From Cladopsammia gracilis (taxonomy: Eukaryota; Cnidaria; Anthozoa; Scleractinia; Dendrophylliidae), in NCBI GenBank assembly GCA_022457155.1, contig JAJGOT010000311.1, forward strand, positions 654,501 through 718,500: 64,000 nt of DNA, in the 5' to 3' direction. Of the stretch, positions 10,579-38,245 are shown piece after piece; position 1 is the stretch's first letter; the number at the start of each line of letters is the position of its first letter. Below the pieces are notes generated by a model, which was not told the DNA's origin, did no database searches, and saw only the letters and a list, made by a program, of their open reading frames with translations. Both the position numbers and the translations under genes were made by a program.

Positions 10579-10669
10579 CACCCGATTCACTCGAATAGTA
10601 CTGGGTATCACCCGTAGAAATGATACCTAAATTACCGGGCATCACCCGCTGTAGTACGTACTATAGTAC
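10579..10669 (+). repeat. left terminal inverted repeat of KDZ element
   Basis: The inner part is strongest: AAATTACCGGGCATCACCCG followed by TGTAGTACGTACTATAGTAC. It pairs with the reverse complement of 38,156-38,198 with only about three differences in 42 bases. Similarity weakens outward (GGGT, then CACCCG..TTC..CGA), so the true edge could be 10,579 or 10,603. Confidence 0.65.
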
Positions 10670-13600
10670 CACTTGAAGTCAAGTAGAACAACATGGCGGC
10701 TAGAAAGGAGCTGCATGGCCGATAGCAACAGCTACAATAACCACCTCTGGAAGACTGTTTGAGTTTACTTTGAGCCCTTTTAATACGAAAGGATTTTCCT
10801 TCATGATTGGCCAGTGATCCTTATCTGCTTATTTACGCCCTTTACGTCAGAAACATCTCAAAGACACGGGTAGACCTTCATCACTCGTCAGGTGTTTCAG
10901 AGTTTGTAGTAAGTCTTAAGTTTAACTCTTATTTTTGGCTCTCTTTGACACTGCTTTTCGCAATTCTCATGTTTAAAAAAAATCCATAACATAACTCATA
11001 TAATCAAAGGAGTTTAGGAGGTTTAGTAATTAATTTAGCAGGTCGTGGTACTGTACCACCAAAGCAAGATCATGGGCCGCGGGTAAGTTAGTTTGTCTTT
11101 GTCTTGTCATTTCGCTATTAGCTAGCGATTGGCTGTGCTTCTTTTGTTTATGAACATAATAAACTTAATATTATTTTCCTAGACAAAGAAAACGTTTTAA
11201 GGCGGAAGTTAAAGTAAGGTATCACCACGATAATGATGTCCAAACGAAGAGGACAGAGCAGCTGGATGTCGGCGAGTGCAGTATCAACGTTGATGAACCG
11301 GTTCATGATCACGCTCTTGCAGCCTCTGACTTTGAATATTCAGATGAAGGTGATGAACCAGAAACGTCTACCACTCTTCATTATCGGAGGCTGCAAAGAG
11401 CAGAAGATGCGTGGTCAAAGTTGCGAGAGGGTGCACTTGCCACAACATTTGAAAAACAGAGTTCATTGTTTGGCAAGGAATGTTATTTCTGTCACTCGGA
11501 AGATGGAGTCTGTCGCTGCCTCGACTGTAGTTCGACGATTAGTTTTTGCGAGTCTTGCGCTATTTCGAACCACAGCCAGCATAATATTTTTCACCGTGTC
11601 GAAATTTTACGGGTAAGTAACGTTTTGTTTACAGTTGCATGCTTTACTGATCCGTGTGGAATTACCGTAAACAATACAGACAAGATCAAATTTTCCTGAA
11701 TATATCATCTTGGATAATTTCTCCTTTTCCTAAATGAGACAGGCAGTTCTTTATATAGTAAATTTAAAAGCCTGTGATGTTATGTACCAGTCAACCAATA
11801 ATAATTAGGTCCAGCAGTCTCCATCAACTGCACCACAATTAACTGTAATGTTTACATTGTACATGTACTTCTATTCACTGTACTCCCCAGCTAGCTGTAC
11901 AGTCATTTATCTACCCAGGGATTATAGTTTTGCATAATTGCCCATATTTAGCCTTCCCTGGAGGAATAATTCAATCATTTACTTATTTTATTTATTTATT
12001 TATTTATTTGTTTGTTTTATTTTTACTGTTGGTGTGATATCTTGACGATTTTACTGACCTAATAATATGTATGTTAATGTAAATAATGATGGCTTTACAT
12101 CGTGTTTTTACGTCACAAAATGTGTTCTAGCTGGATTATTTTTTTAAACTCTCATTTAGTTTTTCAGCAATAAAGAAAACAAATTAATGGCTACATTTGT
12201 ACATGTAACTTGCTCTGGGATGATCGAAGCTTACAAAAAATAAAGGTGGATGGCAGAGATATGATCTCAGTGCAGATGTTTATAGAATTATACTAAGAAG
12301 CAACACATTTCCATGTGCTTTTTAAACAGCTCTTTTGTCCCCACCTTGGGACCTGTTTTGTTCACTTTTTAATGGGGGTTAATTGGCCTTGGGGGAGGGG
12401 AAGTACACTTTTTGAATTGACTGATCAAGTCATGATCAACATGTCATATATATTAATGACTGCCTTTTTTTATATTAGGATGGAAACATTTATTTCCCCT
12501 TAGCAATACAACGAACCCTATTGCTACATGGTCATCAGTGCAGGAGTACTACCAGTAGCAATGTCCATTTGCGTGAAGTAATTGTTGTAGACTCAAGAGG
12601 TGAGATATGTCAGCTCAATCAGTAGACCATTTCTATTCATTGGTCCCTTTTAAACTAATTTCTTTGACTGTTTATTTTATTATACATGGAAGCTTACCGG
12701 TATTTCTTTAATAAATTCAAGGTTGTGGGTGCATAATACTGGCTGTGCATAAATAAATTCCTAAGGCAAAACTTAGCACAGAGTCTTGCTTCAAAAAGTT
12801 TTATATATTGGCCATTTGTAAAACAATTTTGCTGAAAATTAACAGAGATATTAAGGAATGATTGACATGCACTGGGATTGCTTTTTATATGATGGATCAT
12901 GATTAACGGCAATGCTATAAGGAGCTAAAGTGTAAAAGTAGTAAAACTTGATTTTGTCTAAGCTTACACCTCGAAAAAGAACATTACCCTGCTTGATTTT
13001 ACAAGCAAATGGTCACTGATCATAACCTGCACTTTTCTGTCATGACAAAAGTGGATTTTGTGTTTTAAAGTTTCATAGAACATTATTAGCATTAAAAGAG
13101 CAATAAAAGGTCATTATAAATTTAAATGTTTCATACATGTATTTATTCAAAGCCTTCTTTCTTCTCTTAGAAAGGCTTCTTAAAAAGTCTACTTTTGTCC
13201 TGACACACAACAGTACATTATAGTTTGTCACCATGTAGTGATAGGTCACGAAGTTCAATATGGATCTGTGCTGTATTCTTGGACACTGATTTTAATTTAT
13301 GGGTTTTGATTTTATGCATGAGGTTCGTGCAACATGGTTTAAATCATTTTGTAAGACACCTTCTGATATTACAGATTGCATATTCTGGGTATTGTCATTA
13401 TTAGTCGCTGCACTTTGTGTATAAAATTAATGCATACAGCTGAGCCTAATTAAGGTGTAACCTGTGACAGTAAGTGTCATTCTCTGACACAGAACACTCA
13501 CGAGTCAAAGACAAAAAAGCTATAGCAGCTTCCCATATTTCTGCTGACAAAAATTATTTCATGCCATGGATCGAGAACCCTTTGTTAAACTGTTTAGTTT

Positions 13601-15059
13601 TAACTGTCATATATCCTTTACCTCACATATTGTATGTATATAGAAATTAGTAAATGTTATTTTTTTATTGTCATTATTGTTTTGTAGGGTATCAAACTGA
13701 AGTGAAGGTACAGTTTTGCAATTGTGAACCTGACTTTTTGCGTCTGTTGCGTTTCAATCTTTGGGGTGCAACACCTACAAAGCCAGAGTTGGCATTTACT
13801 CTTGATTTGATGAAGCTACTGCACACCCTTAATCTTGAGTGCCAGGTTGCTGTTAAGGATTTCTCTGCTGCCCTACAGACCCTGACAGATGATGTTATCA
13901 TCTTTTCAGTAAGAGCAATTTAATTTATTTAAATATTCTTTCTGTATCATGTGGTAATCTTATATGCCTTTTATTGTATGCATGATTGAGATGTGAGAAG
14001 TGTTTTTTAGGCTGGTTGATATATTTCAATCTGATTCTTTAATTTCTAACTTGTAGGTTAAAATATTATCCAATTTTTCACTTCAATTTATGAGCTACTT
14101 TAATGTGTTAGATAGATAAACTTTATTATATTTAACCACTGGCAATTTGTCAGCTATTTACAGCTGATACACTGTACATCAAACTATATCTGCACAACTA
14201 TAACTTAATAACTATAAACTGTGTCATCTGGGTTTATAACAGCTTGTTTGTTCGTGGTTGATCCGTTATGACATGGTAATTTTTGTTTATGCGCGATCTG
14301 TGTCCAGCATGATTACTTATTGACTCAAGTTGAAGCTAAAGTAGACTGCAACAACCTCCTAAAAACTATCAGTAGGTGGAGGCCACCCCCTCTCTTTATT
14401 TTCATTGCCAAAAAATCCAGCCCAAAAGGTTGATGCCAGTGTTGTGTTTTGAGTGTAGTTAATTAACTATCAAAACACAACACTTAATTACCCTAGCATC
14501 TAGATTAAATCTTTTGAAAACAGACAAATAATTATAGTTATATATTTTGGTTTGTTTATAGAAACAAAGAAAGCTATATCCAGTGATCATAGATAGTCTG
14601 GAAGAATTTAGGTTTGTACTTTCTATTTTTTTCTCATAATTTTTGACAACTCCTTTCCTCATCCTTAAATAATAATTATTTGTTGTGTACTTATATATTC
14701 TCATTGCAGTAGTAAATTGAATGTGATGGTTTTGAGGATGAAGGTTGTAATCTATATATTCAAAGGGGACAGACCGCAAATAGCTGTTTTAATATTCCCA
14801 GCTGTTTAGAATTAAAAACAATACCTCAAATTTAGGATGATTCCCTCTCATTCTAACAATAAATCAGAAAATTCTTAATATATTCTATATCTTAAAAGCA
14901 AAAATGATGACTCCAATGAAACAAATTTTCTTAATATCATTAGATCTGCATTCAATTAAGAAAACTAATTTTTACTCTAATTTATTATAATAAACATTAT
15001 TGAAGATCATGATCTACAATTTCAATTCCAATTTCAATTTATAAAATGTTAATCTTGAC

Positions 15060-15575
15060 ACACAATGGATGAAAATGAGATCACACATATTAATCTTATG
15101 AAACAAAAGCATATTAATTCCTACTGGAAAAATGCTTTACGCAACTCAAAGAAATTAGAATTTTACAATATTTTTAAGGATCGATACATAATCTCCCATT
15201 ATCTAGATCATACAAGGAAATTAAATGAAAGGAAAACTCCAGTCAAATTTACGACAGGCAATCCAAAACTCATGATCGAGCTTGGTCGATATAATCAAAT
15301 CCCTTTGCCCTTAATGCCACATGTAATCAATAATGATATCTCTATATATTAACTTTCTCTTTCAATTCCCAAGATATACAACTTTAAGAAAGAAATACTT
15401 TAATCAAATCTACCAACACTTGCCAAATATTCAAAATACATCCTTAACAGAAAGTATCAAAGAATTGATGAACTCTTCCAATTATTTTGTTAATTTACTT
15501 TTAATGAAAATGATATCTGCGTGTTTTGTATTATGTGATAGCTTAATATTGTCAAATCAAAAAAATGTTATGTAA
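15060..15575 (+). pseudogene. LINE reverse-transcriptase 3' tail relic
   Basis: Lies in intron 5 of the transposase gene. The frame at 15,065-15,352 contains LEFYNIFKDRYIISHYLDH and then GNPKLMIELGRYNQIP. After a frameshift, the frame at 15,333-15,575 contains FPRYTTLRKKYF. This order matches the C-terminal tail of metazoan LINE polyproteins, where a zinc-knuckle CPxC...H...C segment ends in CPRY. The cysteines are mutated here (PLMPHV, QFPRY). It is dead sequence, unrelated to the host transposase. Confidence 0.6.
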
Positions 15576-16738
15576 TTATTTAATATTCCTTTACTGTCTT
15601 TTGTTGTTGTTAAAAAGTAAGCTTTTGCATACTGTAACTCAATATAGTCATGCAAATAAAGCTATTATTTACCCACAATATTCCCAGCATAATTATTTAT
15701 GTGTATGGGAGTATATATCTGAGCCATCAAAATTATCATTTCTTTTTACTCATTAATGGGAGTGCACTGGTTTTAATTACCATGCCTATGCAAATTATTT
15801 ATTGTTTGTTGTGGAGAGGTACAGTACGTGTAATGTACAGTTATCAATAGCACCTAGAAAACACTCAATACAACTGTCTGTAATTTTATAGAGGTGTGTA
15901 TAGTGGTTCTTTCTAGACATTGAAGTATACATTTATGATACACTGTAATTATATCATTTTCACCAGAATATATCGCCACAAATTGTCAACTCTTAAGTTT
16001 ACAACAAGTGCAAGTGACTTAAGTGATACCATTGAGTGTCCTGCTTGTCCCAAGGTATGTACATGTATAAGTAGATCATTTTAGACATATTGGGCTACTT
16101 GGCAACCTCATAGATAGATGTGTTGTGGTTCAATTTATATTTCTTTGGTTTGATTTTTGTTTTCCTTATTCTACATCCCGTGAACATTTACAAAATATCA
16201 GATATATTAGGAAAACAAAGATCAAACTGGTTTGAAAATTTTCAAACCAAAAAAAAAAAAAACAATTTCATGAACCACAACAGATACCTTGTAGATGCCA
16301 TTATTTTATTAGGTTAACTCGTTCATTATTAAACTGTCCTTCAACTGCCTGATAATCTATACTAGAAAAATGAAGCATGCAAGTGCATGTTGTATACATG
16401 CATGTACATACATGGCCACAGTGTACAACTAAAAGCTGGTTTCCATATTGGGAATGTCTTAAAAATTATGTCTTGAAATGGAACTCTACTTGTTATGATT
16501 AACATTGGTCATAGTGTTTTCATTTTTTTTTTCCTAGAATCAAGGTTCCCTACTTGAATCAATGGATGCCTTGTTTATTGGTCGCAAAAAGTCAGCAGGA
16601 AAAAGTGTGAGAAATCCTCTCTTTGGTACTGTCTTGTTTGATGATGACGCAAAAGTGGAGGAGTTTGTGCAGCAACATCCAACAACCAGTAGAGCAACTA
16701 CGGTTTGTAGATATATGCATGTATTCTAGTCGTACAGC

Positions 16739-16800
16739 TGTAACCTTGGACAAAACTAGTTGAGACAAACTGAAACTAGATAAATTTCCTGGGGTGGGGG
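16739..16800 (+). repeat. end fragment of the GGACAAAACTAGTTGAGACA MITE
   Basis: TAACCTTGGACAAAACTAGT and the following GAGACAAACTGAAA match the left end of the intact TA-flanked MITE at 28,802. Only one end is clear. Confidence 0.45.
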
Positions 16801-16854
16801 GCGGATACTTGATCAAAAAAATGATGGTATTTCATTGGTATTTATATAATAAAT

Positions 16855-16980
16855 AGAACATTACATGGTCGCTTGGAAATACGAAATTTCTCTTCTCGTG
16901 TTGAAAAATATTTCACTCCTTCGCTGCACTCATTCGTTTAATATTTTTGTATCTCCACACGGCCATGTAATATCCTCTAT
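16855..16980. repeat. imperfect palindromic MITE in intron 7
   Basis: ATTACATGGTCG... and ...CGGCCATGTAAT form the outer arms, with CGAAATTT/AAATATTTC-type inner complementarity. About 125 bp. Confidence 0.4.
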
Positions 16981-17620
16981 ATTACCCATCCATTACTGTG
17001 TTGCATGTTAATACACTCTATCTTGTTGATTAAATTTTATAGGCTTGTGCCGATTTTCTTGCTGGGGATGCCCTTCGTTCTAGATCAAGATATTCTGCCC
17101 TCAGTGAAACTGCCATATTTGGGAGAGCCTGTCGTCATGAGTTTCCCAAAAAATTTATTAATATGAAACATGGTGAAAGGTAAATCAAATTTAATACCCA
17201 GGTCCAGAAATTTCAATTATAGATTTATTTAAATTAGAATCTGACATTTGGCTGCTAATTATTCAGTAGATTTTTTTGTCATCAAGAATAAGTTATGATA
17301 ATTATTTTAATCAAATATACTGTAAGAATATGACATTTAATGATGTGCAAGACAAAAATATGATTGTTATGGTGAGTAGAACTACATAATTTTATCTTAT
17401 TCACTTGTTTAACGTTTTTTTATAACCACTGGTTGTTATAAATGTTTCATTTTTTTATTATTATTTAGACTTGCATATCCAGTTTGGATTTTAAACCATC
17501 TTTTGGATGAAATCAGTGATCAATCACCTGGTATAGATGTGTGTGTGCTATATGACATTGCTTGCCTCCTGGAAACTCATTTACAGGTAAATTGTTGTTA
17601 TCACATCATTTCTAAGTATG

Positions 17621-17813
17621 TGCAGTTCCAGAAAATATCCATACTCCCCCCATGGAAGGTTTTTTGTTTAGCACCCCCTGTCCCCCCAGGAAATTCCAGT
17701 TTAGCTTCATACTTTTTTTCTAAAATATTGGCTTTTAAGACCCCCGGCTCCCTAGGAATTTCCACTGACCTTCCATGGGGTAGGTATGGATTTTTTCTGG
17801 AACTACACAATGT
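17621..17813. repeat. MITE with 35-bp inverted repeats in intron 9
   Basis: GTGCAGTTCCAGAAAATATC ... CCATGGAAGG at the left, and CCTTCCATGG ... GATTTTTTCTGGAACT at the right. The internal sequence is pyrimidine-rich. No target duplication could be fixed. Confidence 0.65.
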
Positions 17814-20800
17814 TATTTTTGATAACAGTGTCTGTGCACTACCAGCTTTATATTCAAATATTTAATTTGGCTCACTAATTGATGTTCTAGGCCCAGGGAC
17901 AGCACCATATCTTACAGTCTGTAAAGTTTGCCATCCCCATTTTCCATAGCTATGGACACAAAGCAAAATGCCAGGTTTGCATTCTTCATTTTCAAAATAA
18001 TTTTATTGCTGTTTAGACATTAATTATTTTTATTGATATTCTTTTAGCCTAATTGCCATCTGGACACAATTATTGGTGGGCTCTGACTCTTCACTAACTA
18101 ATCATAGTTGCAGACTTGATTCTTGTTTCAACAATTGAAGGATTAAAAGCACAGTACAGTATGTGATTACAGTATGTGATTATTTTGGCCAAAATCTGTC
18201 AAAATGGCTCCAACATGCCCATTTTTTGCATGCACTGCAGATTTTATTTGTTTAATATTGATAAATTTATATTTATTATTCCTTCGCCTAAAGGGAAATT
18301 TCCTGACAATCTCACCAAAGAAATAGCTGTTGGTTCTAGCCATTTGCTGTGGTTAAAGCCAAAGAAATTAATCCTTTAGGCAAAAATTAATTACATCAGT
18401 AGAGACTTTAGTCATCACAGTTGCTATAATTGTCTCTTCAGAAATAATCTTTACATGACTGCACTAAAACATAATATGGAGAACCTGACAATAATATTCG
18501 GCCAATGATATGCTTTGTAAATTAAACTATGTGAAATGTGCTATGTCAGACACAGGGTCAGACAGCTACACACATTTTGTTTGAAAGAAATTTACAATTA
18601 ATTTTAGTGATTTCCTTTTTTTCTTTTCTTTTCTCTCTCAGTTGAATTAAATGTGGTACAACAGTAAAACACTGCTTTAATTGCATTGATTCAACTGTAT
18701 TTCTACAGAAGTTTTAAATACTTTTTGCTTTCCAGATTACATACAGTCCTAGGAGAGTTCCAGGTTTTGGTCTAACTGATGGTGAAGTGCTAGAGAGACT
18801 TTGGTCATTTTTAAGGAGATTTGGGAAAATGACCAAGGAGATGAGGCCAAACCACAGGGTGGATGTTCTGTCAGATGCTCTCTTGTTTTATGCCAGGAAA
18901 AAGTCTGCAAGCTTAGGTTCAGTATGCAGTTTTGTCAGGGCCATTTAACAGTAATTCTGGGTATTGTAGTGTTGGAAAGTTTTAGTTGAAACATTAAACA
19001 TTTTATTGTTTGTTCCCAAGAGAACTTGTCAATTCGTGTGTGCTACATGTATGAAAAACTACATCAAAATGTCTGTTTAATGTATTGCATAATTACTTAA
19101 CTCTTTTTTTGTTGGCTTCGGGTTACCATTTTTTGCAGTCTAATTAAGGAAATGTGATGGGTCTTTGGTTGTTTACTGTGTTAAATTGTTATCAATAGTA
19201 TGGTTAACAATTTAACATTAATAAAAGGTAATACTTGTCTTCACAAATGCAAAGAATTGTCACGTGCAAGTTTTATCCTTGGCAAGGGACTCATCAGAGC
19301 CTTTCTGATGCCTTAATCATCATACATGTTACATTTTGGTTTAAGCTGTTATATAATTTTCTTTCTTTTTTTCAATCAGGAAAACTATTGTCTGATCGCA
19401 TGAAGAGGGCAAACAGCACAATTAAAGACTCAGAGGAAGAATTGACAAAATTGTTGGATAGCCTTCCAGGTATTTATTACCTTAACTTTGAAGATCTACT
19501 CTTGACTACAACTGATGGTTGGTGCCCGTTTTGGTATTGGTGACTAAATGCTTCTGTGATTGTCAGTTTTGGTTTTTATAATTTAATACAAATTATGTAC
19601 TTTCGATCAGTGCAGTGCTTTATATGAACAATATTAATTTAGTTTCCAAAAAGATGTATTAGGAATGAATTTGTCCAGTTGGAAACTGGATATATTTATA
19701 TTGTAACTGAGTGAAAAATTAAATGATCATGCAAAAGTATTACATTATAATTGTTATTAGGATAGATGGTTTTTTACAATTAAATAGTAGTTGCTACAGT
19801 TCATAAATACCTTTATTGTAGCACCAGTTCGAAAGGAAGATGTTGCTGAATGGGCAAACCAGGAAGCAGAATGGACAGGAGGATTGGAAAACCCTGTCGA
19901 ACAACCCTCGTGGAAACATGGCTATGTAATCTACCTTAAAATGTTCTGTGAAATTCGCTCAAAGTGGGAAGAAGCATCCGACCCAGAAAAACTGCAACAG
20001 TTAAATGTACAGTTGAATAAGTATGTTTTGAGATTTGAGAATTTGCACTAAGTTTACTGCATTGTATTATCATGCTGTTTTCCTTTTTATTGCATTCTAT
20101 TGCATACTGTATAGACGAATCGTAAATTATTGCTGTATAATATGCATGTTAAATACCACAAAGCCAGTAAAGACCCAAAAGGGCTTATTTTTATTACATT
20201 TTTCTTGTATCTGCTCGAAGTCATAGCACCCACAAAATGCACCGTATTGCTTTTGGAGTTTGGGTGCTGTTTTCCTGAACTGAATTTCTCGTTATTTCTC
20301 TACCAATATGACATATTATTATAATAATCATTGAATAGATATTAAAATAAATACCTTTTTGTAGATTGGAAAGAGTTTTGGTGGATTTAGAAAGGAAAAA
20401 TGGTATCACTCAGCGTTGGACCACCACATGTGAGGAGTACCAGTTGGCCAGAGATGCTGCCAATGACAGGAGCAAAAAGCTAGCTTTGGTGAAACTGCAT
20501 GCGAAAGTTATTGAACGGTGGTTCTTGTTAAGCTTAAAGGCTAAATACGCAGGCAAGTATATCGCTTTTATTTACATAAAAATAATAAACCAAGATCTGA
20601 CAGTGGTGTCACTTCGCTGGATTGTTGCACGTGAGGAAAACGTTTTGGTGGCACAGCTGCAATTACTTGCGTGCCTCTTCCTTCTTACTATTCTCAGATT
20701 TTGATTGGGTCCAAACGGTCTTCACATATTTATTCTCGTTTCTTTTTGCCGATCGCTTTTTTACCTTTTAAGACTACTAAAAACCTTTCATGTGTTGTAT

Positions 20801-21523
20801 TATTCTAAAGGAAATTAAGAAATGCTTGTATAGAAGAGAAAAGAGAATAAGCAAATCACAAGTATAATTGATTTAAAAAAAAACTTGTTCATGAGCGTGA
20901 AGCAATCATTATAATTCCACTTTTGAATCGAGTCTTACTTTGCGTTCTTTATCACTAGAGCAGATTATTGAAACGAGTAGTAAAATCAAATTCATGAGTT
21001 CACTCTTGCCAAGTGCGCTTGACCGGCTCTGACTGTAAAACATTTATGCATTCATTATTGATATTGATAAATAAGTGAAGAATTGATCCTCGTACTTTGT
21101 TTCCAATTTAAACAATTGCAAGGCAGCCTAAACAAAAAAAAATGGCTTCAACGGAATGGCCAACAAAAATGTTGAACCGTGTGTCACTGCCTTTGGCGGA
21201 CTCGTCTATTTCATTTTTCTCCTGTTTCGTCTGTTTCAGCCATCGGGACTGACACTGAGTGATCGTTTTTTTTTTTATTCGACCATTTAAGACCACCCTA
21301 GATCACCCGAGATGTAAATAAAGATATTGATGAAGTGTTTTTCTTTGTTTTAGAGGGCCATGCACTTGCCAAACGGCTGTCCAAACAAATTTCACAAGCC
21401 GCGAAGAGTATGAAGACTGCTGTTGCTGAATTCAACAAACTTGAATGCAGCACTCGTTGGCCATTGCCCAGCTCCTTGGAGTTCGATGAAGTGAAGAACC
21501 CTGAAGCAGACCTCTGGCTGCGA

Positions 21524-21539
21524 GTGAATTCGTGAATTC
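21524..21539 (+). other. 8-bp tandem duplication breaking the transposase frame
   Basis: GTGAATTC occurs twice in a row. Counting one copy keeps the two flanking open frames in phase; two copies bring TGA in frame at 21,533-21,535. Either a slippage mutation or an excision footprint of an element with 8-bp target duplications. Confidence 0.8.
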
Positions 21540-22179
21540 GTCCACATCACCAGTCCCCATAACCATCCGAAGAAAAGCTGTTGACCTGTACAACTTGGTG
21601 GATCGGGCTAAAGAAGAAGTTACGTTACTTCAGAGTGAAATGAAGAACGTAATTGACCACTTCAACAGCCAGCACGCGATCTTTACTTCAGCATTGTCTG
21701 ATACTACGTCATATAGCATTTCCCTCGAGACCAAAGGAAGGGATGTTTATATTAAAATGAAGTTATTGTCTATAGAATCGCATCTCTTAGAGTTAAAAAC
21801 GTTATTTGAATCACATATTCATGAAATAACTCTTCCAAGCTTTGTATTTGACAGAGAAGATCTCCCATTAAACAACGATGCAGAAACGGAAGTGGACAAT
21901 GAAGCGGCATTTCTTAGCCTTCCTGAAAGAGATGATGCACAAGCCTGTGACAGTGATAGTGACAGTGATAGTGAATATGAAAACGAAATTGGAGTCACTG
22001 ACGATGCTGATAGTGCTTTTTTCAGTTTGACTGGAATGTGATAGTCTCTCTTTTAGTTCACAATAACATATTATAAGTATCTTGTGCACGAAGAAGCCCG
22101 ATGTTGTAAGCTTTGTCATTGGCTTTTCACCACTTCAATTTTTCGTCTTCCTATGATATTATATCTTATTATGGTGGTA

Positions 22180-23620: not shown

Positions 23621-23699
23621 ATCTCAGGATAACCCTGCCCCAACCCGAATAATTATCCTACCAGGGCGTGCTTCGGACATGTTACCCAAAGTGACTACC

Positions 23700-26360
23700 A
23701 TTTAGGAAAAACGGGATCAACTTTAGGTATGGCTTGGGGTAAACCGTATATTTCTAGCGCAATAGTCGAATCTCCATTCATTTTTTCTGTGAAATGCATT
23801 TTTTTATTCTCATTTAGGAAAAACGGGATCAACTTTAGGTATGGCTTGGGGTAAACCTTATATTTCTAGCGCAATATATATAGTCGAATATCTATCCATT
23901 TTTTTCTGTGAAATGCATGTTTTTACCCTCATTTAGGAAAAACGGGATCAACTTTACCGAAGGCTTGGGGTAAACTGTATATTTGCAGCGCAATAGTCGA
24001 ATCTCGACCCCTTTTTTCTGTGAAATGCACGTTTTTATTCTCATTTAGGAAAAACGGGATCAACTTTAGGTATGGCTTGGGGTAAACCGCATATTTCTAG
24101 CGCAATAGTGGAATCTCCATCCCTTTTTTCTGTGAAATGCATTTTTTTTTTATTCTCATTCAGGAAAAACGGGATCAACTTTAGGTATGGCTTGGGGTAA
24201 ACCGTATACTTCTAGCGCAATAGTCGAATCTCGAACCCTTTTTTCTGTGAAATGCATGTTTTTACTCTCATTTAAGAAAAACGGGATCAACTTTAGCTAT
24301 GGCTTGGGGTAAACCTTATATTTCTAGCGCAATAGTCGAATCTCGAACCCTTTTTTTCTGTGAAATGCATGTTTTTACTCTCATTTAAGAAAAACGGGAT
24401 CAACTTAAGCTAAGGCTTGAGGTAAACTGTATATTTGCAGCGCAATAGTCGAATCTCGACCCCTTTTTTCTGTGAAATGCATGTTTTTATTCTCATTTAG
24501 GAAAAACGGGATCAACTTTAGGTATGGCTTGGGGTAAACCGTATATTTCTAGCGCAATAGTCGAATCTCGAACCCTTTTTTCTGTGAAATGCATGTTTTT
24601 ACTCTCATTTAAGAAAAACGGGATCAACTTTAGCTATGGCTTGGGGGAAACAGTATATCTCTAGCGGAATAGCCTAATCTCCACCCCTTTTTTCTGTGAA
24701 ATGCGTGTTTTTATTCTCATTTAGGGAAAACGGGATCAACTTTAGGTATGGCTTGTGGTAAACTGTATATTTCTAGCGCAATAGTCCAATCTCGACCCCC
24801 TTTTTCTGTGAAATGCATGTTTTTACTACCATTTAGGAAAAATGGGATCAACTTTAGGTATGGCTTGGGGTAAACCGCACATTTCTACCGCAATAGTGGA
24901 ATCTCCATCCGTTTTTTCTGTGAAATGCATGTTTTTATTCTTATTTAGGAAAAACGGGATCAACTTTAGGTATGGCTTGGGGTAAACCGCATATTTCTAG
25001 CGCAACAGTGGAATCTCCATCCCTTTTTTCTGTGAAATGCATTTTTATTCTCATTTAGGAAAAATGGGATCAACTTTAGGTATGGCTTGGGGTAAACCGC
25101 ATATTTCTAGCGCAACAGTGGAATCTCCATCCCTTTTTTCTGTGAAATGCATTTTTTTTATTCTCATTCAGGAAAAACGGGATCAACTTTAGGTATGGCT
25201 TGGGGTAAACCGTATATTTCTAGCGCAATATATATCGAAGATCTAACCCTTTTTTTCTGTGAAATGCATGTTTTTAGTCTCATTTAGGGAAAACGGGATC
25301 AACCTTAGCTAAGGCTTGGGGGAAACCGTATATTTGCAGCGCAATAGTCGAATCTCGACCCCTTTTTTCTGTGAAATGCATGTTTTTATTCTCATTTAGG
25401 AAAAACGGGATCAACTTTAGGTATGGCTTGGGGTAAACCGTATATTTCTAGCGCAATAGTCGAATCTCGAACCCTTTTTTCTGTGAAATGCATGTTTTTA
25501 CTCTCATTTAAGAAAAACGGGATCAACTTTAGCTATGGCTTGGGGGAAACAGTATATCTCTAGCGGAATAGCCTAATCTCCACCCCTTTTTTCTGTGAAA
25601 TGCATGTTTTATTCTCATTTAGGAAAAACGGGATCAACTTTAGGTATGTCTTGGGGTAAACCTTATATTTCTAGCGCAATGGTCGACTCTCCACCCCTTT
25701 TTTCTGTGAAATGCATGTTTTTACTACCATTTAGGAAAAATGGGATCAAGTTTAGGTATGGCTTGGGGTAAACCGCATATTTCTACCGCAATAGTGGAAT
25801 CTCCATCCGTTTTTTCTGTGAAATGCATGTTTTTATTCTTATTTAGGAAAAACGGCATCAACTTTAGGTATGGCTTGCGGTGAACCGTATATTTCTAGCG
25901 CAATAGTCCAATCTCGACCCCTTTTTTCCGTGAAATGCATGTTTTTACTACCATTTAGGAAAAATGGGATCAACTTTAGGTATGGCTTGGGGTAAACCGC
26001 ATATTTCTAGCGCAATAGTGGAATCTCCATCCCTTTTTTCTGTGAAATGCATTTTTTTATTCTCATTCAGGAAAAACGGGATCAACTTTAGGTATGGCTT
26101 GGGGCAAACCGTATATTTCTAGCGCAATATATATAGTCGAAGATCTAACCTTTTTTCTGTGAAATGCATGTTTTTAGTCTCATTTAGGAAAAACGGGATC
26201 AACTTTAGGTATGGCTTGGGGTAAACCGTATATTTCTAGCGCAATAGTTCAATCTCCACTCCTTTTTTTCTGTGAAATGCGTGTTTTTATTCTCATTTAG
26301 GGAAAACGAGATCGACTTTAGGTAAGGCTTGGGGTAAACCGTATATTTCTAGCGCAATAG
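23700..26360 (+). repeat. satellite array, about 112-bp unit, about 24 copies
   Basis: The unit contains GAAAAACGGGATCAACTTTA, GGCTTGGGGTAAACCGTATA, TTTCTAGCGCAATAGTCGAA and TTTTTTCTGTGAAATGCATG. Units vary by point changes and by an insertion of TATATA near GCGCAATA. Groups of units recur in similar order (for example around 24,480-24,700 and 25,380-25,600), suggesting block duplication. It lies between the 3' ends of the convergent KDZ and PHD genes. Confidence 0.9.
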
Positions 26361-28586: not shown

Positions 28587-28665
28587 TATAACTATTTTAA
28601 TAGCAAAACTGAGTGGATTGAAATCCTCATCTACTATAAAGTGCTCGATAGTAGAACTAGAGCGA

Positions 28666-29295: not shown

Positions 29296-32200
29296 TCAGT
29301 CCGAATCACTCTCCTCATTATGATTAGTATCCTGATGATTTGTAGCGAATAAACGCTCCGCCGTTTGTCTTGAGCAGTCCTCTTTGATCATTGCCACAAA
29401 GATTATTGCCTAAAATGAAGAAGAAAACAGAACGAGAAACCAAAACGCATTCAGTAATTGCATGGTATGTAGTAGCATTGGTGTTACCTTTAGATGCAAC
29501 AAAGGCTGCCTTTAGTGATAAGTAAGTGTGTTAAAAGATAAAAATATAGAAATTAGATAGAAGCGTGAGCAGTCAGGTTGGTAGTTAGGTGGATAGGCAT
29601 GTAATTTAGGTTGCTAAGTATGCAGTGATTAAAGTGTAACTAACAATAAACGAAAGGGAAGCCGGACAGAAGGAGTAAGTAACTAACCTCAGGAACTAAT
29701 ACTGACAAAACATAGCTCATCATCTTGGTGTCAGTGCTTTTAAAATCTGGCCAAAACTCCGGTAGAAAAGACTTCACCTCATTAGTGAGTCTTCGGGTCT
29801 AAAAAAAGAAAAATAAGAAGTCAACAGAATAGAATAGACACGGAATTCACACTCGACACTAACTGATGCACCAACACGTCGACTAAGACTCCTGGTCATG
29901 CCCTTTGAGGTTTCATGACAGGCCTAAGGCTTACTTGCTTTACGATTTAAATCGGACGTTGTAGGTTTATATATCCGTGGTATATATTTTTCTTTTAATT
30001 CGCAACTAAAAACGTTTTAAACTCTACCCAAGAAGTTAGTGAAAATCCAGACAGTATATAAAACACAATGTTCCTTACCAGTCACCCACCTACCATTGAT
30101 GATGAAAAAAATGTACTGCAATCGCAACTCAGTTGCAGAACATCGGCCCGCTTATTCTGGTGGAAGAGGGCGTGCCTGGTGCTTGGGGTATTCCCGTATA
30201 GGATGTTCTTGAGGTGGTTCTAGAAATACATGACATAAAACAAAATATGAAATAATTAGCACAACTTTAAAACCATTACTCCAAATGAAAGGCAAATGTT
30301 ATTAAACACCATTTAGTGTTATCAATAATAACTGTTAACGATATGCGAAACGCGTTCGCTAATTACTTCCTTGGGTTTTACCTTTACATCTGACAGCTCT
30401 GGATGCTGTAAAAAAGACATTCGAGATGGGTAATTCCTGTTTAAAAAAACAAAAACAAAAAATGCCTCTACTTTATTTAAAGTAATAAAATGTCGATTGA
30501 TATGTGCGCTACGTGGAGAGGGGAGGGGAGCTAAATGTAGATGCAAATGATGTTTGCCGCGTAGATGACATTTGTGCTTTATCGAGTTTTTTTGAGCAAT
30601 TCCTTGATTCTTTTTTCTACAGCACCTAATGCTTTGACTTTCAACCATTTGAAGATTACAACATAAACAGTCATAGTATATTATGACTCTCTCGGTAAAA
30701 CAGCATCTACTAGGTACAAGTGCTGATAGCAAGGTTGCTAGCCTCAGAAAGTGTCGCGTTCAAAATATACATCGCGCAACAATACTGGCAAAACATTCAA
30801 AACTTCAATAATGAAAAAGTATAACAAACTTACGATGCATTCAGTTGCTTTTTCTTGCAACCACAATAATAATCTTCATCAGGAACTTCTGAATCGTCAC
30901 TTAACCCCACACACGAGTAGTGAAACCACTTTTTGCAGTCTTCACAGAAGATCCAATTATCAGTTTTCTTTTTTTTCCTCCTTGGCATTTCCTGGCAAAG
31001 AAATGCCTCGCACCGGTGATCATCTTTTTCTTTCTCGCTTATCTGACCTTGTTTTCGTTTTCGCGTAGGCCTGGTTCTTTTGGTTGATAGTGTGTTGGTT
31101 GGTGGTGTGATGGTGGTGTTGGTTGGTGGTGTGATGGTGGTGCTGGTTGGTGGTGTGATGGTGGTGCTGCTTGGTGGTGTGATGGTGGTGCTGGTTGGTG
31201 GTGTGATGGTGGTGTTTGTTGGTGGTGTGATGGTGTTGGTTGGTGGTGTGATGGTGGTGTTGGTTGGTGGTGTGATGGTGGTGCTAGTTGGTGGTGTGAT
31301 GGTGGTGCTGGTTGGTGGTGTGATGGTGGTGCTGGTTGGTGGTGTGATGGTGGTGTTGGTTGGTGGTGTGATGGTGGTGCTGCTTGGTGGTGTGATGGTG
31401 GTGTTGGTTGGTGGTGTGATGGTGGTGCTGGTTGGTGGTGTGATGGTGTTGGCTGCTGGTGTGATGGTGGTGCTGGTTGGTGGTGTGATGGTGGTGCTGC
31501 TTGGTGGTGTGATGGTGGTGTTGGTTGGTGGTGTGATGGTGGTGTTGGTTGCTGGTGTGATGGTGGTGTTGGTTGGTGGTGTGATGGTGGTGCTGGTTGG
31601 CGGTGTGATGGTGGTGCTGGTTGGCGGTGTGATGGTGGTGTTGGTTGCTGGTGTGATGGTGGTGCTGGTTGGTGGTGTGATGGTGGTGCTGGTTGGTGGT
31701 GTGATGGTGGTGTTGGTTGGTGGTGTGATGGTGGTGTTGGTTGGTGGTGTGATGGTGGTGTTGGTTGGTGGTGTGATGGTGGTGTTGGTTGGTGGTGTGA
31801 TGGTGGTGCTGGTTGGTGGTATGATGGCGGTGCTGGTTGGTGGTGTGATGGTGGGGCTGGTTGCTGGTGTGATGGTGGTGGTGGTATTAGAATAGGTGGA
31901 TGTAGTGATTGTGCTGATGGGTGTGTTTCTGTCAGTAAGCTTGAAAATTATGCTATTTTTAGCAGCAATAATTTTCTTAAGAGTGCTGACTCCATAAGAA
32001 GATGGATGTTTTAGTGGCAGCGAGTCCATGTTTTCCACCTGAATGTTGACTTTGTGCGTCTTGAGGTCATTGTATGGAACCCTCAGGCCACTTTTTCCGC
32101 AAGCTTCACCTGAAAAACATAAGTGGCACGACACATTTTCTCCTAGCATCCGTGCGGTCAACAAAAGCATTCAACAAAATACTACGTACTGACAAGGGTT

Positions 32201-33957
32201 CTTTATTTATTAAAGACTATTTAAAACTAGAACTGTATGTAGCTCATGATTGTATTAACGCGGATATGCTGTAATCGAGTTCAGAGGTGCTTAAAGCGAC
32301 CGAACTCAGTAAAGGTTGTTTCAATGAAATGTGCAGATAAAACTGTTCTCAGATTGAATTTATATTCCATGTAGGTTAAATATGTATCCAGTATTCAATC
32401 TACGTAAGATAACCCTAACCCAAACACAAAGCTAACCGTCACCCTGGCACAGTCACCCTGGCACAAATAAACACTGATGTAGCCAGTGGTGCGATAGTTA
32501 GTTTTAATTTGCCGGTGTTGGGGTTAGGGTTAGCTCACATCCGATTGAATACTGGGTACTTTTTTATCCTTCATGGAATATTGATTCAACCTGAAAACGG
32601 TTACCTGCAACACCAATTTCAAACATTAAAAGGGTCAATATGTCATAAGATTCATAAAGTACCCCTTGATAACGTTATCCGTTGGACGATATTGCCAAAT
32701 TCAGCGAGTTTTCAGCGCACATTGATGTGGCTGAATGATTTACAAAAAAACAATAGATTCATACAATATATAAATCAACTTACTGTATTTACTATTAAAC
32801 AGTTCTATCACTTGCCGACGTAATTCGTCTTTTTCAGTTCTGCTGCTTGACGTTGTCCTTTCTTCCCTCAGTGATCCTGACAAAAGTAAGGCGAGAAATG
32901 ATGAACACTTTGTCGGATAAGTGAACTGACATATCAAAAATTTTGAAATACCTTCACTATGACCATTGACAAACGAATAGAATTTAGGAGCTAGCCGGGA
33001 AGTTTCCACAAATTGAATAGCCCTCGGATGTCCAAATACATCCATATCCCCTTGACCGCTATCGCTAATGAAAAGGCATTTCACGCCTAAATCCTTAAGG
33101 TTTTCACACTGAAAAATACAAAGAGCAAGAACGGCGTCTCCGTTGTTTTAATTGTTATTGATGCATGACAGTGATTAGTTGTACGTCACATGACCGCTTT
33201 TCTGTAAAAAGTACTATACCTCGCGTTTTACATTCTTCAAAGTCCTCTTAATCAGCTCCTTGTCGCTTAGGACCACTTCGGAAAGTGCTCGCCTGTTGAA
33301 CTCCTTTCGTTCATCCTCGTGAAGTTCTTGCCACCTCTCTGCGAGGAAGCAATTGCGGTCTTTAAAATCTAGCTCTTTAACTTGCTCTGTAAAAAATATA
33401 ATATCAAATAAATATATATATTTTTATGCTGTATAAAAATTGTTTATCTTCTTTGCACAGATTTCGCCTCGCTTTTTGATTATTACAGACATTATGCTCA
33501 CTTAAAAATTGTTTATAAAACGTGCTCAACAAATTCAGTCGTTTTGATTGCTTTCATGGAAGACAGCTCCGCCAAAACGCGTGGAGGCTCGCGCGCGGGC
33601 ACCCACGCTTACGCCTCGTATTACCGAGCCGCTAGCACGAAATGCACCTACCGTCAATCGTAGCAATCTCTTTACAAAACAGATTAAAACCATTCAGATG
33701 TGACTTGTTTTTTCTGCGAATAAAATGAAAACATTAAGAGGGAGGTTACACCAAAATGTCGTTGCTGCCTGCACTCGGGCGTTTGCTATTTGCTTTACGC
33801 ATCGCCCAGAATGCAGCGACACTGATGCCTCTGATTTCACTTCTTTGGAAGAAAGAAAATCAGAGACCCAATCGGAGTACACGTCTGCGCGCAAGAAATC
33901 AGTAAAGAAAAAGCGCTGAAATAAAATAAAAAGTCATTACCTTGCAGACTTAGGCAT
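29296..33957 (-). CDS. HMG-box-like / PHD-finger protein, 10 exons, 725 aa (candidate transposon cargo)
   Basis: Exons: 33,941-33,957; 33,652-33,713; 33,220-33,386; 32,952-33,108; 32,784-32,876; 30,834-32,109; 30,382-30,436; 30,094-30,219; 29,688-29,798; 29,296-29,409. Every junction is GT-AG and all phases agree, giving 726 codons with no internal stop. Residues 1-70 resemble a short HMG box: a basic start ([20 protein letters not shown]), then [17 protein letters not shown] conserved-looking middle (residues 83-235, with [17 protein letters not shown] and [13 protein letters not shown]) is followed by about 33 in-frame ITPPTNTT octapeptides (239-507). A complete C4HC3 PHD finger follows (C532, C537, C554, C557, H562, C565, C581, C583), and then a hydrophobic-patterned C-terminus ([20 protein letters not shown]) ending in acidic residues. 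PHD fingers usually read histone H3 tails and HMG boxes bind DNA, so a nuclear chromatin role is likely. The full-length family is unknown to me. It lies inside the KDZ element, convergent with the transposase. Confidence 0.8.
31084..31890 (-). repeat. in-frame 24-bp coding minisatellite
   Basis: About 33 tandem copies of a 24-bp unit (minus-strand sense ACCACCAACACCACCATCAC-type) encode ITPPTNTT or ITPPTSTT in exon 6 of the PHD gene. A few units are 21 bp, so the frame is kept. The opposite strand is also open here purely as a by-product of the repeat. Confidence 0.9.
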
Positions 33958-34479: not shown

Positions 34480-37400
34480 TAACAAAGCGAATAAACGAAA
34501 AACCAATTGATTTTAAGCGGATTTAAAATTAAACTTTTGACTGAAATTCAACCGGCAAAAAATCACCCGTCCGTAAATGATCATATAGTACGCAACTAGA
34601 CCCAAATTATTTCCTTTTTGTGGCTTCTGAAAGCCAAACAGCGGCGAATAATGTTAATATTTCCGGTTCTTACATACGAATAAATCGAATAAACGAAAAA
34701 CGAATTTATTTCAGGGGCATTTAAAATGTCACGTTTGACTGAAATTCACCCGGCATAAAATCACCCGTCCGTATGATCATATAGTACACAACTCGACTTA
34801 AATTATTTTCTTTATGTGGCTTCTAGACGCCATTCAGCGGCCTATGATGTTGATATTTCATGTTCTTACGTACAAATGAATAGAATAAATGAAAAACGAA
34901 TTTATTTCAGGGGCATTTCAAATTTCACTTTTGACTAAAAGTTACCCGGCATAAAATCACCCGTCCGTATGATCATATAGTACACAACTCGACCTAAATT
35001 ATTTCCTTTTTGTGGTTTCTAGACGCCATTCAGCGGCCTATGATGTTGATATTTCAGGTTCTTACCTACGAATGAATAGAATAAATGAAAAACGAATTTA
35101 TTTCAGGGGCATTTAAAATGTCACGTTTGACTGAAATTCACCCGGCATAAAATCACCCGTCCGTATGATCATATAGTACACGACTCGACTTAAATTATTT
35201 TCTTTTTGTGGCTTTTAGACGCCATTCAGCGGCCTATGATGTTGATATTTCATGTTCTTACGTACAAATGAATAGAATAAATGAAAAACGAATTTATTTC
35301 AGGGGCATTTCAAATTTCACTTTTGACTAAAAGTTACCCGGCATAAAATCACCCGTCCGTATGATCATATAGTACACAACTCGACCTAAATTATTTCCTT
35401 TTTGTGGTTTCTAGACGCCATTCAGCGGCCTATGATGTTGATATTTCAGGTTCTTACCTACGAATGAATAGAATAAATGAAAAACGAATTTATTTCAGGG
35501 GCATTTAAAATGTCACGTTTGACTGAAATTCACCCGGCATAAAATCACCCGTCCGTATGATCATATAGTACACAACTCGACTTAAATTATTTTCTTTATG
35601 TGGCTTCTAGACGCCATTCAGCGGCCTATGATGTTGATATTTCATGTTCTTACGTACAAATGAATAGAATAAATGAAAAACGAATTTATTTCAGGGGCAT
35701 TTCAAATTTCACTTTTGACTAAAAGTTACCCGGCATAAAATCACCCGTCCGTATGATCATATAGTACACAACTCGACCTAAATTATTTCCTTTTTGTGGT
35801 TTCTAGACGCCATTCAGCGGCCTATGATGTTGATATTTCAGGTTCTTACCTACGAATGAATAGAATAAATGAAAAACGAATTTATTTCAGGGGCATTTAA
35901 AATGTCACGTTTGACTGAAATTCACCCGGCATAAAATCACACGTCCGTATGATCATATAGTACACGACTCGACCTAAATTATTTTCCTTTTGTGGCTTCT
36001 AGACGCCATTCAGCGGCCTATGATGTTGATATTTCAGGTTCTTACGTACAAATGAATAGAATAAACGAAAAACGAATTTATTTCAGGGGCATTTAAAATG
36101 TCACTTTTGACTAAAAGTCACCCGGCATAAAATCACCCGTCCGTATGATCATATAGTACACAACTCGACCTAAATTGTTTCCTTTTTGTGGCTTTCAGAC
36201 GCCATTCAGCGGCCTATGATGTTGATATTTCATGTTCTTACGTACAAATGAATAGAATAAATGAAAAACGAATTTATTTCAGGGGCATTTAAAATGTCAC
36301 GTTTGACTGAAATTCACCCGGCATAAAATCACCCGTCCGTATGATCATATAGTACACAACTCGACTTAAATTATTTTCTTTATGTGGCTTCTAGACGCCA
36401 TTCAGCGGCCTATGATGTTGATATTTCAGGTTCTTACCTACGAATGAATAGAATAAACGAAAAACGAATTTATTTCAGGGGCATTTAAAATGTCACGTTT
36501 GACTGAAATTCACCCGGCATAAAATCACCCGTCCGTATGATCATATAGTACACGACTCGACTTAAATTATTTTCTTTATGTGGCTTCTAGACGCCATTCA
36601 GCGGCCTATGATGTTGATATTTCATGTTCTTACGTACGAATGAATAGAATAAACGAAAAACGAATTTATTTCAGGGGCATTTAAAATGTCACTTTTGACT
36701 AAAAGTCACCCGGCATAAAATCACCCGTCCGTATGATCATATAGTACACAACTCGACTTAAATTGTTTCCTTTTTGTGGTTTCTAGACGCCATTCAGCGG
36801 CCTATGATGTTGATATTTCAGGTTCTTACCTACGAATGAATAGAATAAATGAAAAACGAATTTATTTCAGGGGCATTTAAAATGTCACGTTTGACTGAAA
36901 TTCACCCGGCATAAAATCACCCGTCCGTATGATCATATAGTACACGACTCGACCTAAATTATTTTCTTTTTGTGGCTTCTAGACGCCATTCAGCGGCCTA
37001 TGATGTTGATATTTCAGGTTCTTACGTACGGATAAATCGAACTGATCGAATAAACGAAAAACGAATTTAATTCAGGGGCATCTAAAATGTCACTTTTGAC
37101 TGAAATTCACCCGGCATAAAATCACCCGTCCGTATGATCATATAGTACACGACTTGACCTAAATTATTTTCTTTTTGTGGCTTCTAGACGCCATTCAGCG
37201 GCCTATGATGTTGATATTTCATGTTCTTACGTACGAATGAATAGAATAAACGAAAAACGAATTTAATTCAGGGGCATTTAAAATTTCACTTTTGACTAAA
37301 TTCACCCGGCATAAAATCACCCGTCTGTATGATCATATAGTACACAACTCGACCTAAATTATTTTCTTTTTGTGGTTTCTAGACGCCATTCAGCGGCCTA

Positions 37401-38115
37401 TGATGTTGATATTTCAGGTTCTTACGTACGAATGAATAGAATAAACGAAAAACGAATTTATTTCAGGGGCATTTAAAATGTCACGTTTGACTGAAATTCA
37501 CCCGGCATAAAATCACCCGTCCGTATGATCATATAGTACACGACTCGACCCAAATTATTTTCTTTTTGTGGCTTCTAGACGCCATTCAGCGGCCTATGAT
37601 GTTGATATTTCAGGTTCTTACGTACGAATGAATAGAATAAACGAAAACCGAATTTATTTCAGGGGCATTTAAAATGTCACGTTTGACTGAAATTCACCCG
37701 GCATAAAATCACCCGTCCGTATGATCATATAGTACACGACTCGACCCAAATTATTTTCTTTTTGTGGCTTCTAGACGCCATTCAGCGGCCTATGATGTTG
37801 ATATTTCAGGTTCTTACCTACGAATGAATAGAATAAACGAAAAACGAATTTATTTCGGGTGGATTTAAAATGTCACTTTTGACTGAAATTCACCCGGCAT
37901 AAAATCACCCGTATGTATTATCATATAGTACGCAACTCGACCTAAATTATTTCCTTTTGTGGCTTCTAGACGCCATTCAGCGGCCTACGATGTTGACATT
38001 TCAGGTTCTTACGTACGAATGAACGGAATAAACGAAAAAAAAATTATTTCAGGCGCATTTAAAATTTCACTTTTGGCTGAAATTCACCCAGCATAAAATC
38101 ACCCGTCCGTATGAT
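34480..38115 (+). repeat. 196-bp satellite array with dimeric higher-order structure
   Basis: About 18 units. The marker GTATGATCAT recurs at 34,771, 34,967, 35,163, 35,359, 35,555 and 35,751, an exact 196-bp period. Between about 34.72 and 35.9 kb two variants alternate: one with GTCACGTTTGACTGAAATTC and the other with CACTTTTGACTAAAAGTTAC. This gives a 392-bp higher-order repeat. Later units are mixtures. Each unit contains CACCCGGCATAAAATCACCC followed by GTCCGTATGATCATATAGTA, which resembles the KDZ terminal repeat. The array fills the space between the PHD gene and the right terminal repeat. Confidence 0.92.
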
Positions 38116-38155
38116 CATATGGTTGTGTGACATCATGCAATGTGTTATGGGTAGC

Positions 38156-38245
38156 GTACTATAGTACGTACTACAACGGGTGATGCCCGCGTAATTTGGT
38201 GCATTTTCAGCGGCCGTCACCCATAGGAGTCGCAAGAACCGGGTG
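38156..38245 (-). repeat. right terminal inverted repeat of KDZ element
   Basis: On the minus strand: AAATTACGCGGGCATCACCC then GTTGTAGTACGTACTATAGT, matching the left repeat. Outward similarity is weaker. The end may lie at 38,222 or near 38,245. Confidence 0.65.

Follow-up and report, generated by a model that had tools for sequence, protein, structure and literature searches.

The locus considered here raises the question of whether a long interval bounded by inverted sequences is a single mobile element and, if so, how that element selects the sites into which it inserts. The window analysed is a 64,000-bp stretch of the coral Cladopsammia gracilis (assembly GCA_022457155.1, contig JAJGOT010000311.1, positions 654,501 to 718,500), to which all coordinates refer. 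A preliminary description had placed inverted repeats at 10,579-10,669 and 38,156-38,245 and had read everything between them as one element. The repeats are real: local alignment of the left terminal inverted repeat (10579..10669, + strand) with the right one (38156..38245, - strand) gave a score of 76, compared with a maximum of 30 among 300 shuffles. The inner portion of the ends (query 51-91) is 95% matched, while the outer portions are similar only loosely. The termini of the 27,667-bp interval (10579..38245, no strand assigned) read CACCCG...CGGGTG in inverted orientation, and exact 7-bp copies of GGCAGTG flank them at 10572..10578 and 38246..38252, as expected for a target-site duplication.

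Searching the same genome with both ends identified 20 left-type ends, as well as 17 right-end rows, 12 of which were identical over the outer 100 bp. Precise pairs of ends were found on 12 contigs of the assembly, with a spacing of 13.3-29.5 kb. An exact 7-bp duplication surrounds nine of the 12 pairs (three have no exact one), and all nine end at 7 bp, with none extending to 8. Nor are the ends a repeat unrelated to KDZ genes, as a genome scan placed a KDZ match within nine of the 12 pairs, and a tenth, C439, contains transposase exons that fall under the threshold of the KDZ scan. Two further full-length copies resemble the window copy in having both genes and the two satellites. The sister copy C964 differs from the window copy at 30 of 20,306 aligned non-satellite columns (about 0.15%), yet its flanks fail to match and its duplication is a different one; the low divergence between sister copies indicates recent movement. 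The host repeats that served as targets also exist as uninserted copies, and at these paralogous empty sites the sequence is continuous through the junction. It could be argued from the loose similarity of the outer parts of the ends that they are a chance inverted repeat or an unrelated dispersed one, and that the interval is not a unit; the shuffle scores, the paired ends on 12 contigs, the nine exact duplications, the sister copies and the uninserted sites refute this, and its probability is negligible. The interval at 10579-38245 is a single KDZ DNA transposon. Shorter derivatives with internal deletions also retain paired ends and duplications (C1430, C1400 and C1354), and these would have been moved in trans.

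The transposase gene was correctly anticipated just inside the left end; its modelled start lies 0.49 kb in. Gene 1 (11072..22041, + strand) comprises 15 exons in the gene model: 11072-11082, 11183-11612, 12479-12599, 13688-13908, 14562-14611, 15967-16054, 16538-16702, 17043-17179, 17469-17586, 17891-17974, 18736-18916, 19380-19469, 19822-20020, 20365-20552 (with a GC donor) and 21354-22041. In the window copy a one-base frameshift interrupts the final exon; a sister copy has an unbroken frame that encodes 923 aa. A CxC2 cysteine cluster (12527..13893, + strand, spanning two exons; 59.6 bits, cut-off 27) precedes a KDZ domain (PF18758; 16553..18879, + strand, spanning five exons; 137.9 bits, cut-off 26.6). 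Having this domain and the CxC cluster before it, and moving as a unit whose ends are defined and flanked by a duplication, the element belongs to the KDZ superfamily. An excision footprint was considered for the tandem GTGAATTC within the final exon of gene 1 and dropped, as C964 and C439 also have it.

The second gene, said to face inward from the right side, was modelled from 33712, where its 5' end is incomplete, to 29296 on the - strand, using a gene model and homologues. Its exons are 33712-33652 (5' incomplete), 33386-33220, 33108-32952, 32876-32784, 32109-30834, 30436-30382, 30219-30094, 29798-29688 and 29409-29296, encoding an accessory protein of 719 aa without the missing N-terminus. 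It contains, all on the - strand, an HMG-box-like segment (33274..33697, two exons) that in the window copy scores 17.6 bits, below the Pfam cut-off of 25.4; a GTF2I (TFII-I) repeat (31937..32823, two exons; 57.4 bits, cut-off 27; E 1.9e-15); and, by domain search, a PHD finger (30863..30997). When the GTF2I repeat was compared with solved structures, 10 of 12 rows were TFII-I family members. TFII-I family proteins have several GTF2I repeats each; a Pfam scan of gene 2, with its incomplete N-terminus, found a single stretch. A 24-bp minisatellite lies in frame (31081..31885, - strand) and encodes a Thr/Pro-rich linker. It differs in length in C439, where the gene 2 frame is kept. From these domains, binding to both DNA and chromatin is predicted for the product of gene 2.

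It might be supposed that the element acquired gene 2 from its host as a passenger that plays no part in transposition. The deleted copies move without carrying it, and its two copies in C964 and C439 differ by five non-synonymous and two synonymous changes, with no clear purifying selection. Nevertheless, its frame is open in all three full copies although the minisatellite changes, and the pairing with KDZ recurs. GTF2I sequence was found at four places in the genome scan, all of them beside KDZ sequence and none apart from it. One of the four belongs to a second coral KDZ family: its aligned part shows only 32% identity, its two ends agree at all 100 bp, and it has a 7-bp duplication of its own. 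A tblastn search with gene 2 of the first family gave no usable match to gene 2 of C1168, which was located through its reading frames. The same pairing is seen in amphioxus (Branchiostoma lanceolatum), at a locus with a predicted KDZ protein and a KDZ-GTF2I-chromo isoform; a homeodomain-like part such as that of amphioxus was not found in gene 2 on inspection by eye. A mere passenger is therefore very unlikely.

The two satellites of the preliminary description lie outside the coding exons. The central non-coding repeats (23445..26360, no strand), delimited by a repeat finder, consist of a 61-bp unit (23445-23613) and a 112-bp satellite repeated 23.6 times (23699-26360). The 112-bp arrays are present in all three full copies, whereas in three deleted ones the repeat finder listed none. 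A 196-bp satellite repeated 18.5 times (34489..38120, no strand) adjoins the right end. The idea that it is an amplified left end was unsupported, as 36 of the 500 shuffles also reached its score of 21; the comparison's strong match on the right side was the satellite's own edge. The conservation of CACCCG within the satellite, ranking 30 and 66 among 191 six-base windows, is not unusual.

The flanks of the copies bear on how sites are selected. In the window, the host DNA contains the word CCGCTGA at a distance of 42 bp beyond the left end (10537..10543, + strand), and it is present in uninserted host copies too. With at most one mismatch, it lies 27-47 bp beyond the left end at 15 of 17 distinct sites (11 exact), always in one orientation, compared with a background of 3.8% of 345 windows, an association beyond chance. 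The word was first spotted by eye in flanks that were later counted, with two sites held out; both held-out left flanks carry it. The two left flanks without it are those of C964 and C1430. Of 14 right flanks, none has the word in that orientation and three have it on the other strand. The word is also found within the element, inside the right end (38207..38213, - strand, 32 bp from the terminus) and in the 196-bp satellite, where it stands 17 times as TCAGCGG; in the target it faces the junction, but in the right end it faces away from the terminus. The deleted copies C1430, C1400 and C1354 retain four, one and four exact words, respectively; having lost most of them yet having duplications, they indicate that the satellite's copies of the word are unnecessary for mobility. 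CATGG was discarded as a target motif, being near a junction at five of 18 sites, and small RNA genes, the targets of Dada transposons, were discarded as well, with no Rfam family match in the 17 end loci. CCGCTGA likely guides the choice of insertion site, and from the flanking sequences insertion appears to be both motif-guided and oriented.

We consider it probable that this transposon, with its 7-bp duplications, moves by cut-and-paste using its own transposase, and that the GTF2I/PHD protein, with its predicted binding to DNA and chromatin, aids site choice. The transposase would cut at the CACCCG/CGGGTG ends, and an element-encoded DNA-binding protein would read CCGCTGA in target DNA as well as in the right end and the 196-bp satellite; our guess is that gene 2, and not a host factor or the transposase, supplies this reader. 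Bound to the word, the protein would then position the complex for joining of the left end at a distance of about 38 bp. Alternatively, the integration complex may be attracted to CCGCTGA sites by open chromatin or by a DNA-binding protein of the host, with no element protein reading the word. The loose spacing of 27-47 bp resembles tethering to host factors, and the second family lacks CCGCTGA in its inverted repeat and flanks (at one site), but a host factor would not require the word to be in the right end and at 17 satellite places as well, and we find this explanation rather unlikely. A stronger contender, to which we give a little short of even chances, is that gene 2 keeps the element expressed, through anti-silencing or transcriptional activation, and that the transposase itself produces the preference for CCGCTGA. 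In fungi, KDZ elements include TET/JBP genes, whose proposed role is escape from silencing (PMC12730594), and the recognised parts of gene 2 fit chromatin work; deleted copies without gene 2 still have duplications, though they may have used gene 2 in trans. The HMG and GTF2I parts, on the other hand, suggest contact with DNA, in keeping with the preferred role in site choice.

The duplication, the gene 2 product, the second family and the target word go beyond the preliminary description. This recently moved animal KDZ family is legible from end to end: the termini, the length of the duplication, the gene that accompanies the transposase, the derivatives with deletions, and a target signature that is strong and oriented. 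It provides a testable model of KDZ site choice. TFII-I transcription factors are associated with the Williams-Beuren region (PMC3493543). The partner gene places their repeat in a coral transposon, making a transposon origin of TFII-I a testable question. A far-reaching proposal would have three parts: KDZ elements whose accessory gene encodes HMG and GTF2I parts would form an old animal lineage, dating back at least to the cnidarian-chordate split; their accessory protein would recognise a single word both in the element's right end and in the target, fixing place and orientation; and the vertebrate TFII-I family would derive by recruitment from an element of this kind. Taken together, these three parts are unlikely all to be correct. 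A literature search, with most subscription papers outside its reach, returned no paper with both "GTF2I" and "KDZ", none combining "KDZ", "coral" and "transposon", and nothing useful on the origin of TFII-I.

Among known systems, compared by description, the closest are the fungal Kyakuja families, which, according to PMC12730594, have a KDZ transposase, 7-bp duplications, 5'-CA..TG-3' termini and a chromatin-acting gene beside the transposase. Both coral families share the duplication length and the termini. They differ in having inverted ends (about 90 bp here, 100 identical bp in the second family), whereas the fungal elements are described there without inverted repeats and with TET/JBP in place of the HMG-like/GTF2I/PHD gene. 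Zisupton, as presented in the same text, combines a KDZ transposase with terminal inverted repeats, but makes 8-bp rather than 7-bp duplications. In the Dada transposons, too, ends and target have a short word in common, which in the authors' view guides insertion (PMC3706591); they belong to another superfamily and use fixed sites inside small RNA genes, whereas the coral element lies with its left end 27-47 bp from its word. The repeat of gene 2 matches solved repeats of the TFII-I family (GTF2I, GTF2IRD1, GTF2IRD2), but it occurs once and belongs to a mobile element, where HMG-like and PHD parts accompany it. In mammals, the C-terminal part of GTF2IRD2 is a captured hAT (Charlie8-like) transposase, of a superfamily other than KDZ (PMC10641963). 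In the predicted B. lanceolatum proteins P0037 and P0046, a KDZ transposase is likewise followed by an HMG-like and GTF2I stretch; there, the accessory part is fused to the transposase in a predicted isoform and ends in a chromodomain, rather than the PHD finger of the coral protein.

The two inverted ends claimed in the preliminary description for the KDZ element at positions 10579-38245 are real: the left end aligned locally to the reverse-complemented right end with a score of 76, as against 30 or less in 300 shuffles. The termini read CACCCG...CGGGTG, and directly outside both lies an exact 7-bp repeat, GGCAGTG (10572-10578 and 38246-38252), which that description did not mention; from end to end the element measures 27,667 bp. 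The two satellites it had reported were recovered by a tandem repeat search (112 bp, 23.6 copies; 196 bp, 18.5 copies), together with a 24-bp minisatellite. A shared host repeat flanks the element (10499-10578 and from 38246), and just beyond the left end (10300-10451) lies a perfect inverted repeat with 70-nt arms around a 12-nt spacer. Also to the left, several pieces of Gypsy-type LTR retrotransposon gag-pol-like frames were recognised by eye on the minus strand (3460-8027); on the other side, a 64-bp satellite of 18 copies (62198-63353) overlaps a long open frame.

Copies were sought across the 878-Mb assembly containing the window contig (C953). The left end as query gave 37 matching rows, which a hand count divides into 20 of left type, 16 of right type and one stray, and the search with the end sequences, as proposed in the preliminary description, placed both precise ends on 12 contigs at a spacing of 13.3-29.5 kb; contigs C297, C1219 and C681, with one damaged end each, were excluded from this count. 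An exact 7-bp duplication flanks nine of the 12 pairs (not C1319, C728 and C232), its sequence differing from pair to pair and in no case (0/9) extending to 8 bp. Nine of the 12 also enclose a KDZ match, the exceptions being C439, C1319 and C1113. Full-length sister copies on C964 and C439 contain both genes and both satellites. With satellites excluded and main alignment rows summed, 30 mismatches and 60 gap columns separate C964 from the window copy across 20,306 aligned columns, and 231 mismatches separate C439 from it across 19,820. The target-site duplications of these three copies differ, and the window's outer flanks were unmatched in the 300-bp flank of C964 or of C439. C964 or C953 has moved recently, since the two are nearly identical outside the satellites despite different duplications and unmatched flanks. 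Further KDZ matches, on C43, C121, C1134, C260, C263, C389 and C1270, cover a different part of the domain, in a single frame, and point to other KDZ families.

Empty paralogous sites, a second proposed check, were found for the flanks of both C964 and the window copy. Of 40 rows matching the joined 400-bp flank of C964, 38 read straight across the junction with no element there, 25 of these starting at base 1 or 2 and ending at 400, and the remaining two are C964's own halves; the duplicated heptamer is single in both uninserted copies inspected. For the window copy, the joined flank matched in 42 rows, and 41 of them span the junction, beginning at about base 89-108 and ending at 396-400. 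Four uninserted copies of this site were aligned and all are continuous, but a variable stretch exactly at the junction hides the duplication.

Three of the shorter copies (C1430, C1400 and C1354) were read through in full; they have large internal deletions in common, and neither gene 2 nor a large part of gene 1 is left in them. Their remaining sequence is mostly 85-96% identical to that of the window. Across 12 of 17 right-end rows, C1430 and C1400 included, the outermost 100 bp of this end show 100% identity, as expected if selection for mobility keeps the ends. A central stretch common to the three deleted copies, with a reverse-transcriptase-like frame (by eye) in C1430, is apparently a LINE piece inserted before their spread. 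The C1319 element is inverted relative to C1337 in host sequence of the same type, with extra junction bases and no clean duplication; it could be an excised copy re-joined the other way round.

The word CCGCTGA was first spotted by eye in the aligned flanks, upstream of many left ends. Occurrences with no more than one mismatch were counted over the final 60 bp of distinct flanks, after C37a and C37b (flanks akin to those of C1337) and C1319 (an inverted copy in host sequence like that of C1337) were dropped. Left flanks carry it on the element's strand in 13 of 15 cases and on the other strand in one, right flanks in none and three of 14, respectively; among background 60-bp windows the same-strand rate is 3.8% (n = 345) for the left side and 6.5% (n = 277) for the right. 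Both held-out flanks, C1219 and C681, contain the exact word, at distances that are approximate owing to their damaged left ends. Overall, the word is found at 15 of 17 sites (11 exact), 27-47 bp from the element (mean 38), and is missing at C964 and C1430. In a collapsed set, counting the host repeat of C953, C1003 and C232 once and omitting the held-out two, it occurs in 11 of 13 (binomial P ~2e-14) and exactly in seven of 13 (P ~1e-14), both values being uncorrected for the word's having been spotted in these data; it is also the most shared 7-mer of that set, and 300 random-window sets reached five at most. At the window site the word is host DNA, because uninserted copies carry CCGCTGA. 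The C953, C1003 and C232 insertions lie within ~15 bp of each other in copies of a single, highly abundant host repeat carrying the word.

The complement, TCAGCGG, occurs 20 times in the window: 17 times in the 196-bp satellite, once in the right end, 32 bp from the terminus, and twice outside the element (9498 and 46361); CCGCTGA occurs twice, as the target word and at 38396. The satellite consensus also contains two copies of the terminal hexamer CACCCG, a number reached by 3 of 5000 shuffles, with conservation that is not unusual. Exact TCAGCGG is present four, one and four times in C1430, C1400 and C1354, which counts against a need for the satellite array.

Gene 1, the transposase gene, has 15 exons with phase-consistent junctions and one GC donor, and its product combines a CxC2 cluster (59.6 bits) with a KDZ domain (137.9 bits). 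In the window copy the reading frame is broken by a single base in the final exon; that of C964 is intact and gives a 923-aa protein, and C439 has lost part of exon 11 including its acceptor. The top relatives are the protein P0001 (923 aa, 62% identical) and one from Desmophyllum pertusum (58% identity across 73% of the query), with others among the 63 matches in soft corals, sponges, amphioxus, fish and molluscs. The transposase genes of C964 and C439 differ by 11 synonymous and 7 non-synonymous changes in 902 codons (573 and 2133 sites; damaged exon-11 codons of C439 omitted), consistent with purifying selection.

The inward-facing second gene of the preliminary description was borne out as nine exons on the strand opposite gene 1, encoding 719 aa with an incomplete N-terminus; the frame is unbroken in each of the three full copies, the C439 version being 749 aa long. 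With the minisatellite part removed, Pfam reports a GTF2I repeat (57.4 bits, cut-off 27) and a PHD finger (30.9, cut-off 24); an HMG box (17.6) and a PWWP3A/B C-terminal domain (19.4) score below threshold. TFII-I family repeats make up 10 of 12 rows when the repeat is compared with solved structures (best 2dn4_A, E 4.3e-10). Two synonymous and five non-synonymous differences separate C964 and C439 in 428 codons (minisatellite excluded), counts that give no clear sign of constraint. Homologues are P0064 (Orbicella faveolata), P0067 (Montipora capricornis) and P0065 (Acropora cervicornis, partial), the PHD finger being above cut-off in P0064 and below it in P0067 (21.3 vs 24). P0064 carries the name of the kinase dyrk2, perhaps due to a Ser/Thr-rich linker. 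Judged by the closest relatives of the encoded proteins, the host is probably a stony coral.

A genome-wide, exon-level scan for GTF2I (11 candidates scored) found four places, three of which are the full-length copies in the window, C964 and C439. At the fourth, on C1168, a KDZ exon lies 13.6-13.7 kb away on the opposite strand. The right side there reads CGGGTG followed by ATGGTGG, and a search of the left side for ATGGTGG and CACCCG found both, adjacent. This second-family element spans 485347-510102, with ends identical in their first 100 bp and ATGGTGG on both sides; the target word is absent from its inverted repeat and from 80 bp of either flank. Its accessory gene, pieced together by eye from reading frames, has an HMG box (25.7, cut-off 25.4) and a GTF2I repeat (54 bits) and is 32% identical to gene 2 over the aligned part; tblastn with gene 2 gave no usable match to it. 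The gene (504247-505212, minus) continues for ~165 aa without a Pfam match in place of the PHD finger, and a far exon (509951-509682, minus) is homeodomain-like by eye, with no homeodomain reported by Pfam. In Branchiostoma lanceolatum, predicted proteins P0037 and P0046 have their first 625 residues in common; P0037 (listed isoform X2) is a plain KDZ protein, and P0046 (X1) is predicted to run on into an HMG-like, GTF2I and chromodomain stretch, the only GTF2I label among the 63 KDZ matches. In P0066 of B. belcheri this stretch stands alone, with GTF2I just below cut-off (26.2 vs 27). The C1168 element and the amphioxus proteins, the latter as predicted gene models, argue that the GTF2I-KDZ pairing is not confined to the window; no paper in the literature searched had the two together.

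The first family inserts as a unit with a 7-bp duplication, has near-identical copies at different sites as well as deleted ones, and is associated with an oriented word. DNA transposons generally bind and pair their ends, excise and join in a staggered manner, giving a duplication of fixed length. Here, a transposase complex would pair the ends, excise, and join with a stagger that fixes the duplication at 7 bp, and we infer that a CCGCTGA-binding protein of the element may tether the complex to targets and set its orientation. The gene 2 product would be the first candidate for this reader, because its recognisable parts are of DNA- or chromatin-type; the transposase CxC cluster or a host protein could read the word instead. 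The main rival for gene 2, that it acts against silencing, could hold as well; such a role was proposed for TET/JBP of fungal KDZ elements (PMC12730594).

Kyakuja (Kojima 2025) has 7-bp duplications and CA..TG termini without inverted repeats (PMC12730594); both present families share the first two features but, unlike it, have long inverted repeats. Their 7-bp duplication also differs from the 8 bp of Zisupton (PMC12730594). On these descriptions alone the present families fit neither fully, because 7 bp and CA..TG are combined with long inverted repeats. In Dada elements, a short word is common to ends and target, as in the first family (PMC3706591).
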